Assembly (NCBI GenBank): GCA_016235545.1
Contig: JACRKB010000182.1
Coordinates: forward strand, 1 to 32,180
Source of the DNA: Verrucomicrobiota bacterium
GTDB lineage: Bacteria > Verrucomicrobiota > Verrucomicrobiia > Limisphaerales > SXTU01
Direction of reading: 5' to 3'
Length of the DNA: 32,180 bases
The notes under the pieces are model-generated. The model did no database searches, was not told where the DNA came from, and worked only from the letters and a program-made list of their open reading frames with translations. The position numbers and the translations under genes were made by a program. Shown one piece after another: positions 4,448-29,526 of this stretch. Position 1 is the first letter of the stretch, and each line of letters opens with the position of its first letter.

Positions 4448-4457
4448 GGGCTGGAAA

Positions 4458-4597
4458 GTGATTAGTAATTAGTGCTTAGTGAGCCGTGCTATCGCGCGGG
4501 CAGAGTGTGGCGGGAACTTTCCATGCCTGCCAGTCAGGAACGAGTCCAAGCGGACGATTGGATGCCCAGCGACCACTTCGCACTAATTACTAATTAC
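4458..4597. repeat. Inverted repeat with GTNNTTA heptad arms, locus 1
   Basis: The left arm is GTGATTA GTAATTA at 4458-4471 followed by GTGCTTA at 4472-4478. The right arm carries the reverse complement. A perfect 15-base inverted repeat is formed by 4461-4475 and 4580-4594, with 104 bases of unrelated sequence between. The element fills the gap between the isomerase-like gene (stop at 4609-4611, minus strand) and the GalU-like gene (start 4447, minus strand). The same arm family recurs at 11252-11323 and 29460-29526. Confidence 0.9.
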
Positions 4598-4608
4598 TGT
4601 CCGATTCC

Positions 4609-11243: not shown

Positions 11244-11251
11244 GGCGGAAA

Positions 11252-11323
11252 AGTAATTAGTGCTTAGTAATTAGTAGCGTCGGCGCGGCACTTCACTCTT
11301 CAACTAATCACTAATTACTACTC
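11252..11323. repeat. Inverted repeat with GTNNTTA heptad arms, locus 2
   Basis: The left arm has units GTAATTA (11253-11259), GTGCTTA and GTAATTA (ending 11273). The right arm at 11303-11323 is built of the reverse-complement unit ACTAATT/ACTAATC. Positions 11252-11268 pair with 11303-11319 at 16 of 17 bases, with a 34-base spacer. The right arm ends 10 bases before the start of the amylase-family gene, so a hairpin in the mRNA would lie right at its ribosome entry region. Confidence 0.9.
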
Positions 11324-11332
11324 ACTCTCCCC

Positions 11333-12811: not shown

Positions 12812-12812
12812 G

Positions 12813-12938
12813 GTGAGCAGGTGGGAGAGTGAGCAGGTGAGCAGGTGAGCAGGTGAGAAAGTGGGAAAGTGGGAAGGTGATGCCCCATTCTCTCTCGCTT
12901 TCTCACTTTCTCACCTGCTCACTCTCCCACCTGCTCAC
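12813..12938. repeat. Inverted repeat with octanucleotide (GTGRGMAR) arms between convergent genes
   Basis: The left arm is eight consecutive 8-base units from 12813 to 12876 (GTGAGCAG, GTGGGAGA, GTGAGCAG x3, GTGAGAAA, GTGGGAAA, GTGGGAAG). Positions 12813-12841 are a perfect 29-base inverted match to 12910-12938. It exactly fills the gap between the amylase-family stop (12811) and the argF stop, touching the latter by one base. In either direction the transcript would form a long hairpin, so it may act as a bidirectional terminator, though no T-run follows. Confidence 0.93.
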
Positions 12939-13903
12939 TACCCCACCAGCCACGCGATGATCGCCTTCTGAGTGTGCAGGCGGTTCTCAGCCTCGTCGAA
13001 GATGGTCCGCGAGTGCGCCTCGAAGGTCGCGTCGTCAATCTCCTTGCCGCGATACGCTGGCAGGCAGTGCATCACCAACGCGCCCGGCTGCGCGAGCTTC
13101 ACAAGCGACTCGTTAATCTGATAGCCGGTGAGCACCTGGATGCGAGCGGCGGCCTCGGCCTCCTTGCCCATCGAAACCCACACATCCGTGTAAAGCAGAT
13201 CGGCTCCGGCGGCCGCGGCCTGCAAATCAGCGGTGATCACAATCTTCCCGCCCGTGGCGGCGATCGTGGCCTGGATCACCTCACCCGCCGGCGTGCTCCG
13301 CGCGTGAAGGTGCGTGAAACCCGCCCGCTCCAGCAGCGACAGCGCCGGTTGAAATCCCCTCGGCGCAGCGATGCGCAGCTCGAAGCCCAGCTTCGCCGCG
13401 GCGAACACCCAGCTCGCCGGCACATTGCACGCGCCGTCCCCCACAAACGTCACCACCTTCCCGTGAATCGGCCCGCGCTGCTCCTGAAACGTGAAGATGT
13501 CCGTGAGTATCTGGCACGGGTGTTCCTCATCCGTCAGCGCGTTGATGGTCGGTATGTTCGCATAGCGCGCGAACTCCTCCACATCCGCCTGCGCAAATGT
13601 GCGGAACACCGCCCCGTGAACCATCCGGCCAAGAACCCGCGCCGTGTCCTTGATCGGCTCGCCGCGCCCGAGCTGGATGTCGGCGGCGCTGAGAAACATC
13701 ACGTCCGCACCCAGCTCGCGCAGGCCCACCTCGAAGGACACCCGCGTGCGCGTGGAGGACTTCGCAAAGATGAGCGCCCATGTCTGGCCCGCCAGCGGCC
13801 TCGTCGCGTGATGGCCGCGCTCGCGCTTCATGGTGAGGGTCGCGGACAGGATCGATTCCATGTCCGCCCGGGACAAATTTTCAAGGCTCAACAGATGCTT
13901 CAT
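12938..13903 (-). CDS. argF: Ornithine carbamoyltransferase
   Basis: A 321-residue enzyme that joins ornithine and carbamoyl phosphate to make citrulline in arginine synthesis. Carbamoyl-phosphate motif SSTRTR at residues 49-54, HPCQILTD at 128-135, ornithine-binding DVWVSMG at 240-246, and the catalytic HCLP at 279-282 are all present. The frame extends 25 codons further upstream (to 13978), but MKHLLSLENL at 13903 matches the normal N-terminus of the family and the length is then typical. No other arginine gene is adjacent. It converges with the amylase-family gene and diverges from recG, with about 200 bases upstream containing a heptad repeat. Confidence 0.96.
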   Translation of the reverse strand: MKHLLSLENLSRADMESILSATLTMKRERGHHATRPLAGQTWALIFAKSSTRTRVSFEVGLRELGADVMFLSAADIQLGRGEPIKDTARVLGRMVHGAVFRTFAQADVEEFARYANIPTINALTDEEHPCQILTDIFTFQEQRGPIHGKVVTFVGDGACNVPASWVFAAAKLGFELRIAAPRGFQPALSLLERAGFTHLHARSTPAGEVIQATIAATGGKIVITADLQAAAAGADLLYTDVWVSMGKEAEAAARIQVLTGYQINESLVKLAQPGALVMHCLPAYRGKEIDDATFEAHSRTIFDEAENRLHTQKAIIAWLVG

Positions 13904-14102: not shown

Positions 14103-16175
14103 GTGCCTGAGCCGCCGATGCCAGCCCCGCTTGCCCGGCCCATCACCGCCTTGCGCGGCGTGGGGCCCAAGCACGTGGAGTTCTTCGCGAAGCTCGGCAT
14201 CGCAACCGTCCAGGACTTGCTCCTGCTCCAGCCACGCCGGCATGAGGACCGCCGCACGGGATGGAGCATCGGGCAGTTGAAGTTGAAAGTCCCCGCCACA
14301 GTGCTGGGCCGCATCGTCGCGCAGGGCACGAACTTCTACTCGAAGAAGACCAAGTCCACTTTCGAGTTCATCCTCGATGATGGCACCGGGCGGCTGCATT
14401 GCCGCTGGTGGAACCTTCCCTGGCTGGCGGACAAGTTCCGCGTCGGCGACGAGGTCTTCGTGCACGGAAAGCTGCTCTCGCTCAAGCCGCGCATGATGGA
14501 TCATCCCGAGACGGAGATCGTCGAGTCGGACGGCGAGGCATCCACGCACCTGCACCGAATCGTGCCGGTGTATCCGCTGACGGAGGGCTTGTCGCAACGC
14601 TGGCTGCGCGGGCTGATGTGGCGGACGCTGGAGGAATACGGCGCGCAGATTCTTGAGCGGCACGGGGAATTGCTGGCGCGGGGAAGGGGCGGAGCAGGAT
14701 TAGGCTCAGGATTACGAGCACGAGTCACGGCGACGGAAGCGGCTTCTTCTCCTGCTCCTAATCTTGATCCTAATCCTGCTCTCTCCCTCTCCTGCTCCGC
14801 CGCCATCCGCTCCCTTCACTTCCCCGCCGAACTCCCCGACGCCGAACTCGCCCGCCAGCGTCTCGCACTCGACGAGTTTCTCGACCTCCAGCTCGCCGTC
14901 CGTGCCCGGCGCGAGAAGCTCCTCGCCAACGCCCGCAGCCAGCCGTGCAAAGGGGACAACCACCTCATCCGTCCGTTCCTCGCCCAGCTGGGCTTCCCGC
15001 TCACCGACTCGCAAACCACCGTGCTCCGCGAAATCCGCGCCGACCTCGCGCGCGGCACGCCCATGCGCCGCCTGCTGCAAGGCGACGTGGGCGCGGGCAA
15101 GACCGTCGTCGCCGCCTGCACCGCGTTGATGGCCTTGGAGAGCGGTCACAGCGTCGCGCTCATGGCCCCGACCGAGATTCTCGCCGAGCAACACTTCCGC
15201 AACTTCACCCGCTGGCTAAAACCCCTCGGCGTGCGTGTCGAACTCCGCACCGGCTCTCGAAAGACCGCCCCCAACTCTCAACTCTCAACTCTCAACTCAC
15301 AACTTTTCATCGGCACCCACGCCCTCATCGAGGATACCTTCACCGTCGAGCGCCTCGGCCTCGTCATCATTGATGAGCAGCACAAGTTTGGCGTCGCACA
15401 ACGCGAGCGGCTGCTGCGCAAGGGTCATTACCCGCACCTCCTCGTGATGACCGCCACGCCCATCCCGCGCACGCTGGGCCTCACGGTTTACGGCGACCTT
15501 GATGTCTCCGTCATCGCGCACCTGCCGCCGGGTCGCGGGGCCATCAAGACTTTCGTCAGGGGCCCGGAGAAATTGCCCAAGGTCTGGACTTTTGTCCGCG
15601 AGCGGCTCGCCGAAGGACGCCAGGCCTACATCGTCTATCCGCGCGTCGAGGACACGGACTTGAAGACCGGCACGAAGGCAGTGATGGCGGAGTTCGAGAA
15701 GCTGGCGAAGGAACTTGCGCCGCATCGCGTCGCGCTGCTGCACGGGCGCTTGTCGGCGGAGGAAAAGGAATCGGTCATGGCCGACTTCCGCGCGAACCGC
15801 GTGCAGGCCCTGCTCGCCACCAGCGTCATCGAGGTCGGCGTGGACGTGGCGAACGCGACCGTCATGGTCATCGAGAACGCCGAGCAGTTCGGCCTCGCGC
15901 AGCTCCACCAGTTGCGCGGCCGCATCGGGCGTGGCGCGCATGACTCGTGGTGTGTCCTCGTCGCCGCCAAGCTCACCGACGACGCCCGTGCGCGGCTCAA
16001 GGTCTTGGAGGAAACGACCGACGGATTCGCCATAGCCGAGGCGGACTTGCGCCTGCGCGGGCCGGGTGAATTGCTCGGCCAAGCCCAGAGCGGTGCGCAA
16101 CAGTTCAGGTTCGCTGACCTGACGAGGGATTTGGAACTGGCAAAGCTGGCGAGGGAGTTGGTCACTCGCGCGTAA
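14103..16175 (+). CDS. recG: ATP-dependent DNA helicase RecG with two repeat-derived insertions
   Basis: A 690-residue helicase that remodels stalled forks and branched DNA. It has the N-terminal segment with LRGVGPKHVEFFAKLGI and the wedge OB-fold (about 60-145), then the helicase core: Walker A GDVGAGKT (327-334), Walker B DEQHKFG (424-430), TATPIPRTL, and motif VI QLRGRIGRG (603-611), plus the C-terminal LRLRGPGELLG. The start is GTG at 14103; an ATG five codons later is also possible. Two stretches look foreign: about residues 195-234 (Gly/Ala/Ser/Pro-rich, from a hexad inverted repeat) between the wedge domain and the helicase core, and about 390-401 (NSQLSTLNSQL, from a CAACTCT heptad array) just before the strand leading to IGTHALIE. 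Both are in frame and all motifs remain intact, so the enzyme is probably active. Confidence 0.95.
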   Translation: MPEPPMPAPLARPITALRGVGPKHVEFFAKLGIATVQDLLLLQPRRHEDRRTGWSIGQLKLKVPATVLGRIVAQGTNFYSKKTKSTFEFILDDGTGRLHCRWWNLPWLADKFRVGDEVFVHGKLLSLKPRMMDHPETEIVESDGEASTHLHRIVPVYPLTEGLSQRWLRGLMWRTLEEYGAQILERHGELLARGRGGAGLGSGLRARVTATEAASSPAPNLDPNPALSLSCSAAIRSLHFPAELPDAELARQRLALDEFLDLQLAVRARREKLLANARSQPCKGDNHLIRPFLAQLGFPLTDSQTTVLREIRADLARGTPMRRLLQGDVGAGKTVVAACTALMALESGHSVALMAPTEILAEQHFRNFTRWLKPLGVRVELRTGSRKTAPNSQLSTLNSQLFIGTHALIEDTFTVERLGLVIIDEQHKFGVAQRERLLRKGHYPHLLVMTATPIPRTLGLTVYGDLDVSVIAHLPPGRGAIKTFVRGPEKLPKVWTFVRERLAEGRQAYIVYPRVEDTDLKTGTKAVMAEFEKLAKELAPHRVALLHGRLSAEEKESVMADFRANRVQALLATSVIEVGVDVANATVMVIENAEQFGLAQLHQLRGRIGRGAHDSWCVLVAAKLTDDARARLKVLEETTDGFAIAEADLRLRGPGELLGQAQSGAQQFRFADLTRDLELAKLARELVTRA
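14686..14804. repeat. Hexanucleotide-arm inverted repeat inserted in frame in recG
   Basis: The left arm (14693-14722) is five 6-base units: AGCAGG, ATTAGG, CTCAGG, ATTACG, AGCACG. The right arm (14751-14780) is CCTGCT, CCTAAT, CTTGAT, CCTAAT, CCTGCT. The arms pair at 26 of 30 bases around a 28-base spacer; a further CCTGCTCC copy follows at 14791-14798. The frame of recG is kept, adding about 40 residues (195-234) at the linker before the helicase core. Confidence 0.9.
15272..15305. repeat. CAACTCT heptanucleotide array inserted in frame in recG
   Basis: Three perfect CAACTCT units (15272-15292), one CAACTCA, and a partial CAACTT. No inverted partner is nearby. Translated as NSQLSTLNSQL, residues about 390-401 of RecG, at a position that is a surface loop in the family. 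Confidence 0.9.
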
Positions 16176-16176
16176 C

Positions 16177-16332
16177 GGGGACACTCCTGTCCCCGTAGCC
16201 GTCCCCGAGTTACTTGCCGCGAAAGGGCGCAAAGGACACGAAGCTGAGAGCTTTAACTTTCCTTTGTGCTCTCTGCGCCCTTTCGCGGCTAATCCATTTG
16301 AATCTCGCCGGACTGGGGACAGGAGTGTCCCC
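16177..16332. repeat. Nested inverted repeats between recG and thyA
   Basis: Outer arms 16177-16194 (GGGGACACTCCTGTCCCC) and 16315-16332 are perfect 18-base reverse complements; each is also nearly self-complementary. Inner arms 16216-16231 (GCCGCGAAAGGGCGCA) and 16274-16289 are perfect 16-base reverse complements. The left outer arm begins just two bases after the recG stop codon. No T-run, so any terminator role is uncertain. Confidence 0.92.
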
Positions 16333-16388
16333 CTCACGCCACGGGGAGATTGCCCGCTCACCTTCACCTCCCGCATAGTCCGCCCGAC

Positions 16389-17219: not shown

Positions 17220-18518
17220 ATGCGCTTGAAATTTCCGACCAAGAAAAGTCAGAGCCTTGTCACTTCGGTTCCTACACAATCAGTCTGGCCGCTCGACCCC
17301 GCCGTCACGTTCCTGAACCACGGCTCGTTCGGCAGTTGCCCGCTGCCGGTGCTGGAGTTCCAGCGCGAGCTGCGCGAGCGGATGGAGCGGCAGCCGGTGA
17401 AATTCTTTGTGCGGGACTTAGAGGGCTTGCTGGATGAGGCGCGGGCGGAGCTGGCGGCGTTTGTCGGCAGCGCGGCGGAGGACTTGGTGTTCGTGCCGAA
17501 TGCGACCTCGGGGGTGAACGCGGTGTTGCGCGCGCTGGACTTCCAGCCAGGCGATGAACTCCTCGTCACCGACCACGAATACAACGCCTGTCGCAACGCG
17601 TTGGACTTCGTCGCCCAGCGCAGCGGCGAGCGCGTGGTGGTGGTGAAGGTTCCGTTCCCCGTGCCGGCGACTTGCAGTCGCCGTCCGGAAGTATCGTCAG
17701 CTTCGGAGCGGCGACTGGAAGTCGCCGGCACGGGCGGCGGGGCCGCGGAAATCATCGGCCCCATCCTCGCGGCGGTGACGCCCCGGACGAAACTGGCCTT
17801 GCTCGACCACGTGACCAGCCAGACGGGGCTGGTGCTGCCCATCGAATTTCTCGTGCGCGAGTTGAACGCGCGCAACGTGGACACGCTGGTGGATGGCGCG
17901 CACGCGCCGGGCATGGTGCCGCTGGACCTACACGCGCTCAACGCCGCCTACTACACGGGCAACTGCCACAAGTGGATTTGCGCGCCGAAGGGCGCGGCCT
18001 TTCTCCATGTGCGCGCGGACCGGCAGAAGCACATCCGACCGTTGGTCATCAGCCACGGCGCGAACTCGCAGCGCACCGACCGCTCGCGGTTCCTCATCGA
18101 GTTTGGATGGATGGGCACGGGCGACCCGAGCGCGGCGTTGTCTGTGCCCAAGGCGATCGAGGTTGTCGGCTCGATGCGGCCCGGCGGCTGGAAAGAAGTG
18201 ATGAGGCACAATCGCGACCTCGCGCTCACCGCTCGCCGCGTGCTGTGCAAGGCACTGAACGTTCCCCTTCCGTGCCCGGATGAACTCATCGGCTCGCTGG
18301 CTGCCGTGCCCATCCCCGACGCGAAGAGCGCGAAGCCTTCGAAGAACCCGCTCTATCTTGACCCGCTGCAGGACGAACTGCTGGCCAAGTTCAGCATCGA
18401 AGTCCCGGTCATCCCGTGGCCTGCGCCGCCAAATCGGCTGCTCCGCATCTCCGCGCAGCTCTACAACTCGCTGCCACAATACGAAAAGCTGGCGGGGGCC
18501 TTGAAGAGGCTGCTGTGA
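17220..18518 (+). CDS. Class V aminotransferase (isopenicillin N epimerase-like) with a palindromic insertion
   Basis: A 432-residue PLP enzyme of the CefD/SufS-related class V fold. VTFLNHGSFGSCP near the N-terminus (about 29-41) is typical of the epimerase-like branch; VPNATSGVNAVLRAL is the cofactor phosphate region; DGAHAPGM holds Asp225, which contacts the PLP ring nitrogen; NCHKW holds Lys251, the Schiff-base lysine. The substrate is unknown; members act as epimerases, lyases or desulfurases. Residues about 147-172 (VPATCSRRPEVS and following) come from a palindromic DNA element inserted in frame between VVVVKVPFP and the AAEIIGPI segment, where relatives normally have a short link. The GAGGAGG sequence 11 bases upstream may be its ribosome binding site. 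It ends convergently with the methyltransferase gene. Confidence 0.88.
   Translation: MRLKFPTKKSQSLVTSVPTQSVWPLDPAVTFLNHGSFGSCPLPVLEFQRELRERMERQPVKFFVRDLEGLLDEARAELAAFVGSAAEDLVFVPNATSGVNAVLRALDFQPGDELLVTDHEYNACRNALDFVAQRSGERVVVVKVPFPVPATCSRRPEVSSASERRLEVAGTGGGAAEIIGPILAAVTPRTKLALLDHVTSQTGLVLPIEFLVRELNARNVDTLVDGAHAPGMVPLDLHALNAAYYTGNCHKWICAPKGAAFLHVRADRQKHIRPLVISHGANSQRTDRSRFLIEFGWMGTGDPSAALSVPKAIEVVGSMRPGGWKEVMRHNRDLALTARRVLCKALNVPLPCPDELIGSLAAVPIPDAKSAKPSKNPLYLDPLQDELLAKFSIEVPVIPWPAPPNRLLRISAQLYNSLPQYEKLAGALKRLL
17658..17734. repeat. Palindromic element inserted in frame in the aminotransferase gene
   Basis: Arms 17658-17683 and 17709-17734 are inverted copies that match at 25 of 26 bases, with a 25-base spacer. 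The core word is GCCGGCGACTTGCAGTCGCC in the left arm. The 77-base element (plus flanks) is translated as an Arg/Ser/Glu-rich stretch without a stop, at residues about 147-172. Confidence 0.93.
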
Positions 18519-27979: not shown

Positions 27980-28461
27980 CACAATCGTTTCAGGTGCTGA
28001 GTCGCTGCCGACCAACGGCAGCGCCAAGTCAGACGCCTCGCCGACGACAGGTGTTCGCCGGGTTTTCGTGGCGGCGCCTGCACGAGGTGTTCTCCCCCAG
28101 CTGCGGAGCAGCGGCAGAAAGTAGCCCACGGCGTAAGCCGTGGGGTTGTCGAATCCGGGACCGGAGCCCCAGCGGGGCGGCAGAATCCGGCTCGGACTGC
28201 GCCGGTGGACCGCTATCTGTCGCCGCGCTGCGGCTTGCCGCTGCCATCTACCCCACCCACGGCTTACGCCGTGGGCTACTTTCTTTCGCAACTCCGTTGC
28301 TGTTGCGTGCTTCGCACACGGGTTGAGAGAAACCGAGATGCTCCCGCCAAAGCACGCCGCCGAGTTCAGGATGGACAACCACAGGCGTTTCGGAGATTTC
28401 ATTCGCCCATGTCCCGCGCTGGCAATCATGCCCTCGTCCGTCCCAGTCCACGCTCCTGCCC
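27980..28461. other. 482-base gap between divergent genes, half filled by a palindrome
   Basis: Upstream region shared by the DUF1549/DUF1553 gene (minus) and the sugar-binding lipoprotein gene (plus). Positions 28116-28284 are a palindrome (listed separately). The promoters of both genes must lie in 27980-28115 and 28285-28461; I could not pick out convincing -35/-10 boxes. No ORF here looks real. Confidence 0.6.
28116..28284. repeat. Palindromic repeat with perfect 29-base arms
   Basis: Arms 28116-28144 and 28256-28284 are perfect 29-base reverse complements, and each contains its own hairpin (CCCACGGC loop GCCGTGGG). The 111-base interior holds a further stem GCCCC-AGC-GGGGC (28166-28178) and the 12-mer GGACTGCGCCGG (28194-28205), shared with the palindrome at 18528-18642. 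This looks like a composite of several small dispersed elements. Confidence 0.93.
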
Positions 28462-29454: not shown

Positions 29455-29459
29455 AAGAA

Positions 29460-29526
29460 GTGCTTAGTAATTAGTGCTTAGTCGTCGCACTCCCGAACCC
29501 GCCTCACTAATTACTAAGCACTAATT
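29460..29526. repeat. Inverted repeat with GTNNTTA heptad arms, locus 3
   Basis: Left units GTGCTTA, GTAATTA, GTGCTTA (29460-29480); right units ACTAATT, ACTAAGC, ACTAATT (29506-29526). Positions 29460-29476 and 29505-29521 form a perfect 17-base inverted repeat around a 28-base spacer. It begins five bases after the sugar-binding gene's stop and ends 12 bases before the aroE-like ATG. Confidence 0.93.

Follow-up and report, generated by a model that had tools for sequence, protein, structure and literature searches.

Why does the recG gene of a lake bacterium contain, in frame, a palindrome built from short repeats, and how did this DNA come to lie in the stretch that joins the wedge domain to the helicase motor? 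The bacterium belongs to the Limisphaerales (Verrucomicrobia subdivision 3), a lineage known via metagenome assemblies. In-frame palindromic repeats have so far been a curiosity of the Rickettsiales and a few REP-rich genomes. We think it probable that the recG segment is a non-autonomous, dispersed foldback that entered a permissive slot, one that unrelated families have colonized repeatedly and independently. A few places within bacterial genes seem to undergo invasion time after time, which would give unrelated DNA a recurrent route for adding disordered segments to core enzymes, RecG and PrmA among them. A caution follows for gene models and protein families of this order, which include repeat-derived residues. 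The locus was analyzed within a stretch of 32,180 nucleotides (the window), and all genomes compared are metagenome or draft assemblies.

The foldback in recG

The recG gene (14103..16172, forward strand, GTG start) was identified by domain matches and encodes a protein of 690 aa, with 1gm5 and 9wm0 as relatives in the PDB. The RecG_wedge (residues 14-175), DEAD (324-456) and Helicase_C (502-610) domains are all present and undamaged, so that the helicase parts are intact, as the original prediction held. The insert at site 1 (14675..14798, forward strand, residues about 192-232) is defined by an inverted-repeat call, by its palindrome score and by the short loop found at this place in other families. 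Its ungapped arms (14675-14724 and 14749-14798) are 50 nt each and 78% complementary. They are degenerate 6-base (hexad) arrays through which the recG reading frame stays open, which bears out the description of an in-frame, insertion-type palindrome with hexad-array arms.

Within these arms lie two 34-nt units that match the consensus of a repeat family (GGAGCAGGATTAGGATCAGGATTACGAGCAGGAG). The F arm (14691..14724, forward strand, hexads GGAGCAGGATTAGGCTCAGGATTACGAGCACGAG) agrees with the consensus at 32/34 positions and, by frame analysis, is read as AGLGSGLRAR. The R arm (14749..14782, reverse strand) is the reverse complement of the hexad arm, agrees at 31/34 positions and is read on the forward strand as PAPNLDPNPA. 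Between them is a loop (14725..14748, forward strand) that is partly self-complementary (GAAGCGGCTTC). The two family arms pair at 29/34 positions, consistent with the 26 of 30 given originally, and the whole copy is ~108-124 nt long.

The inverted repeat is real. The palindrome score at site 1 is 21, compared to 9 in the best control window of the same gene, and the RNA fold has an energy of -72.1 kcal/mol, where shuffled sequences average -44.3 (z = -7.7). Markov-shuffled versions of the same 432 kb of surveyed sequence (see below) contained zero inverted repeats of similar score. No Rfam family matched across the recG insert at the gathering score, and a phage or plasmid origin was set aside as no match was found.

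In the AlphaFold model of RecG (40-row alignment, mean pLDDT 84.6), pLDDT drops below 50 at only two internal stretches, residues 197-217 and 390-395, which are the two inserts of this protein. The site-1 insert is thus modeled as a disordered linker, and its effect on the protein may be near neutral.

A dispersed family restricted to the genus

Used as a query against its own genome (5.0 Mb in 311 contigs), the recG segment had 94 matches. Since a palindrome is matched on both strands, these represent about 40-50 separate sites. The insert is thus not an isolated event in recG but one of these copies, and the genome has many other palindrome families besides this one. The hexad family was matched in 10/11 congeneric genomes and, among the relatives searched from elsewhere, in 3/47 other genera, with marginal matches. 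It therefore appears to be dispersed and restricted to the genus, with at most marginal hits elsewhere. Most copies lie between genes (36 of the 39 examined), though ~82% of that DNA codes. Beyond recG, in-gene copies were identified in prmA and in one signal-peptide gene. In the latter (L034:2503-2542), a near-consensus hexad arm forms the hydrophobic core of what is predicted to be a signal peptide (MKTPSSPRPFPLLLVILILFLLRLSPAHA). In congeners, cores of about the same length are also hydrophobic but different, so the hexad core may be a replacement.

The family occurs in two topologies. Topology A has its arms in the order R-F, often around a GC-rich loop of type AGTGCGGGGAAGGGCAGGAT, and is sometimes found inside outer arms GGGCGCATCTCAGTTTCTTGC. 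Topology B, to which the recG and prmA copies belong, has the order F-R and a variable loop that is often self-complementary. The foot of the arm is GGAGCAGG / CCTGCTCC, and the GTAG/CGTC tetranucleotide is absent. Four of the six arm frames are open (GAGLGSGLRAG, SRIRIRITSR, LLLVILILILL and PARNPDPNPA), and recG and prmA, two genes only, both use the flexible pair of AGLGSGL-type and PA(R/P)NLDPNPA readings.

Slippage and template switching within recG could in principle have produced the segment with no dispersed element involved, and the tandem hexads, along with prmA copies that differ by whole hexads (G008 versus G009), would suit such a local origin. This is highly improbable given that the same 34-nt consensus stands at tens of unlinked sites and that arms are no more similar within a copy than between copies (27.1 versus 26.8 of 34 positions, p = 0.14). 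The same comparison led us to reject quasi-palindrome correction between the arms; derived bases shared between arms gave a weak signal (p = 0.04) that vanishes within each topology.

Occupants of site 1 among relatives

The site-1 loop of RecG is about 21 aa long in other phyla (range 17-21 aa) and 17-26 aa in many members of the order, whereas in this genus it has 41-74 aa. The loop is extended in 9/9 resolved congeners, and short loops were found only in other families. The 40 residues are thus not conserved in distant RecG proteins, in line with the original prediction. The further expectation that close relatives would lack the segment or have it replaced was right as to replacement, since they often have a different palindrome, and wrong as to simple absence.

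Hexad elements occupy the site in G000, G010 and G001 (decayed in the last). The occupant in G004 and G003 is CGTGCCGACGGCTT..GCCGCCGGCACG, that in G002 is a foldback CCCTCTCCC..GGGAGAGGG and that in G006 is GGTAGGGCCGACC..GCGGCCCTACC; the loops of G005 and G007 are extended with no clear palindrome. Other families of the order have further palindrome kinds at this place. Where a palindrome is clear, it scores 14-26, versus a maximum of mostly 8-12 elsewhere in the gene. Judging from arms read side by side, the basis on which occupants of any one slot are called unrelated here, at least three unrelated palindromes appear to occupy the same RecG loop among congeners. The presence of the hexad segment in three congeners is what a native part of RecG with a function of its own would predict, but this reading is contradicted by congeneric loops that vary in length (41-74 aa) and are unrelated in sequence, and by the far shorter loop in other phyla, and we find it hardly credible.

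In the recG tree, hexad and P2 occupants are interleaved. Sliding identity between the G001 and G000 genes is 72-85% 5' of site 1 and about 91-92% over and after it. This mosaic structure means that recombination suffices for the interleaved occupants, and several independent hexad insertions in recG were rejected as an explanation, as mosaic genes account for the tree pattern. Since no empty site 1 was found among congeners, its polarity is read from other families.

Unrelated occupants and empty sites in other genes

We surveyed 432 kb (400 kb of genome stretches plus the window), with gene models from a purpose-made hexamer score that covered 83% of the surveyed DNA. This gave 66 palindromes over the score threshold and 0 in Markov-shuffled sequence. 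Intergenic regions hold 56 of these, gene edges 5 and genes 5; along with the intergenic bias of the hexad copies, this indicates many palindrome families that are mostly excluded from genes. The array arms in the surveyed DNA have periods of 6 to 11. Six in-gene palindromes were compared among congeners, a small sample made up of the five from this unbiased survey (recG included) and prmA from the hexad search. Besides recG, 4/5 slots hold unrelated in-frame palindromes in congeners and 5/5 are empty in some congeners.

One of these slots is in the window, where a class-V aminotransferase gene has an unrelated in-frame palindrome (17658..17734, forward strand; survey and congener comparison). 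The insert is 72 bp, or 24 aa, and the slot is empty in G004, G005 and G006. The prmA slot contains the hexad family in G000, G002, G008, G009 and G004 (decayed), an unrelated GTAGGGCGAGACTCC family in G005 and G006, and is empty in G001, G003 and G010. In the PSD1 gene, one family is present in G000 and another in G002 and G004 (shortened), with empty slots in G006, G007, G009 and G010. A linker between pseudouridine synthase and methyltransferase has different palindromes in G000, G010 and G006 and a further insert in G007, and is essentially empty in six congeners. The class-III aminotransferase slot holds a shell with heptads in G000 and G006, heptads but no shell in G005 and an unrelated palindrome in G002, and is exactly empty in six congeners; the four occupants join at the same junction, after codons EEL.

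For RPE-4/6/7 of Rickettsia, the favored view is a single ancestral insert that diverged past recognition (PMC3767692). Here such an insert would accommodate the extended site 1 in all nine congeners and the G004 prmA copy, which is a decayed hexad element. The alternative occupants are, against this, recognizable as other dispersed families with arms of their own, and empty sister-species sites at five slots contradict it. As a general explanation it is very unlikely; for recG site 1 alone, it is possible.

A genome is estimated, by extrapolation from five cases, to have ~58 in-gene palindromes, which gives any one congener a chance of about 3e-4 of having such a palindrome no more than 3 codons from a particular slot. 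The same slot was occupied in 8/30 comparisons without recG, a count that includes kin-shared occupants and one unclear insert (G007). As a rough reckoning, same-slot occupancy appears to be far above random placement, and usable slots, also roughly estimated, would number of the order of 200 per genome. A refinement of the explanation that we prefer is that the slots are targeted rather than tolerated, with machinery that prefers certain DNA features and unrelated families that hit the same nucleotide. The shared junction past EEL and the low number of usable slots point this way, but no shared target motif emerged, and it may simply be that few loops can accommodate 30-60 additional residues. 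We regard targeting as possible, leaning somewhat against it.

Alternatively, each slot may have been filled once, in an ancestor, with later palindromes entering the loop of the resident hairpin while the outer shell decays, so that the slot stays occupied and its sequence is swapped. Nested palindromes are common, with outer arms GGGCGCATCTCAGTTTCTTGC around three different cargo palindromes, and the class-III aminotransferase slot, where the shell surrounds heptads in two genomes and heptads stand alone in a third, is what this would look like; recG site 1, occupied in all congeners, also fits. At the five other slots, where three to six congeners are empty, this would require many precise losses, and we consider replacement unlikely. 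Given the nested palindromes, a resident hairpin is still a candidate for the next landing site.

A probable route into the linker

Under the preferred explanation of repeated, independent entry, a hexad-armed foldback would insert in frame into the flexible linker from wedge domain to helicase motor, where RecG would take up 30-50 added residues with no obvious damage. Of the several open frames of the arms, the one retained would be small and flexible (AGLGSGL / PAPNLDPNPA). The linker would belong to a restricted number of permissive slots that unrelated families fill repeatedly and independently in sister species, and homologous recombination among congeners would then spread or reshuffle the slot alleles. 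Selection would retain only in-frame copies within flexible linkers. Insertion was presumably enzymatic, and at slots with congeneric empty sites the change was presumably a gain.

Three Y1_Tnp genes were identified, none with a hexad foldback within about 1.5 kb. A RAYT was rejected as mobilizer of the hexad family because none of the three is flanked by it. An autonomous partner reached via GGGCGCATCTCAGTTTCTTGC likewise found no support, as the paired spans examined in this draft genome hold cargo palindromes or ordinary genes and no transposase. No target-site duplication was seen by eye at the compared junctions. More speculatively, a hairpin-directed insertion process may act alike on many unrelated palindrome families and deliver them to a few landing sites that all of them share. 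Among sister species, coding slots would then be filled, exchanged and vacated. The landing sites would comprise fixed codons of housekeeping genes and loops of resident palindromes.

Comparison with known elements

The hexad family works like the Rickettsia palindromic elements (RPEs, reviewed in PMC10969869), a parallel already drawn in the original prediction. RPEs are repeated palindromes of about 100-150 bp, scattered over the genome, that lie in frame in exposed loops of housekeeping genes, in a consistent frame that gives a similar peptide. The size and site number of the hexad family, its in-frame position in recG and prmA, the disorder predicted for RecG and the shared reading in these two genes are all comparable. 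The likeness is one of way of working, with no demonstrated sequence kinship. The hexad family differs in that more than 90% of its copies are intergenic, its arms are short-period arrays, the occupants of one slot come from families that are plainly unrelated, and empty sites persist in sister species. A study of R. japonica had noted different RPE groups in the same gene of different species, and hotspot versus divergence was not fully decided there (PMC3767692). Because unrelated families stand at the same codons beside empty sites, gain, loss and swap are datable here and that question becomes testable.

The parallel was also said to come from a different phylum, which is correct for the lineage (Verrucomicrobiota, Limisphaerales) but not new, as in-frame GTAG/CGTC REPs are known from Opitutus terrae, also of the Verrucomicrobia, many of them in replication and repair genes (PMC3733652). 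The main text of that study does not include recG (PMC3733652). Both systems place hairpin repeats in frame, and several alternative occupants described here have GTAG near their start (GTAGGGCGAGACTCC, GTAGCGGCGC). The hexad family, in contrast, has no GTAG/CGTC tag and no adjacent RAYT gene. In-frame palindromes are thus already known, from Rickettsia RPEs and from the repair genes of Opitutus terrae; the array arms and the invasion of the same slot by unrelated families beside empty sites are new.

Hairpin arms made from short repeat motifs also occur in the P6b region of the Nostoc tRNA-Leu(UAA) intron, where Class I and Class II repeat stem-loops replace each other at one position, in several lineages independently (PMC4476775); the host there is a group I intron, not protein-coding sequence. 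Cyanobacterial STRRs are degenerate, dispersed head-to-tail arrays with units of ~7 nt; in recG, the array at site 2 (below) has 7-nt units and site 1 has 6-nt units. Geobacter metallireducens has dispersed arrays of 7-nt units, some of them foldbacks, within and between genes. These were read as regulatory elements or regulator binding sites (PMC2700814), and orthologous slots were not compared there.

Further repeats in recG and between genes

The second insert of recG (site 2, 15272..15304, forward strand) is an in-frame array of period 7, CAACTCT, identified by repeat search and congener comparison. Tens of sites have CAACTCT-like arrays, although the reversed-pattern control is the same repeat and so uninformative. 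Relatives have CAACTCT arrays, CCATCTC arrays, and TCGAGAG/TCGACCC and GCGTGTT/AACACGC foldbacks at site 2, which is in frame in 9/9 congeners. Gain or loss of a 7-base unit would shift the frame, making RecG phase-variable in principle. A more distant recG (L115) has a palindrome at a third place, the loop past YPRVEDT in the helicase C domain (aa about 599-635), which looks like the GGAGCGCGGAC family.

The spacer between recG and thyA (16170..16339) contains nested palindromes, with a different palindrome each in G000, G002, G005 and G003/G006. Intergenic slots thus appear to behave like coding slots with regard to alternative occupants. The outer repeat GGGCGCATCTCAGTTTCTTGC has 215 matches in the genome. 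It forms outer arms in many intergenic copies, where it might correspond to the terminal inverted repeats of a MITE, and is missing from the recG copy. Shells of this repeat surround different cargo palindromes (hexad, Acido-Lenti-1-like and GGGCTGAAAGCCCGGCATTCGC) at L272, L273, L274 and L276, and we interpret the enclosed copies as nested, modular foldbacks.

Two public assemblies of the same genus (L104, L105) are titled Klebsiella pneumoniae and Akkermansia muciniphila, though they are Limisphaerales. A peptidase-like ORF (L275, about 2.6-4.3 kb) has an in-frame palindrome-derived segment (VGRDSVEPHLERSEAS..) that is similar to the prmA insert of G005 and G006. More intergenic array foldbacks with 7- and 8-base units were identified in the window at 12812-12947, 11245-11326, 29459-29522 and 4450-4598. 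Both arms of a further long palindrome (28099-28144 and 28256-28301) match the Rfam Acido-Lenti-1 RNA (RF01687) and contain GTAG; in this lineage, the Acido-Lenti-1 'sRNA' may be a REP-type repeat dimer.
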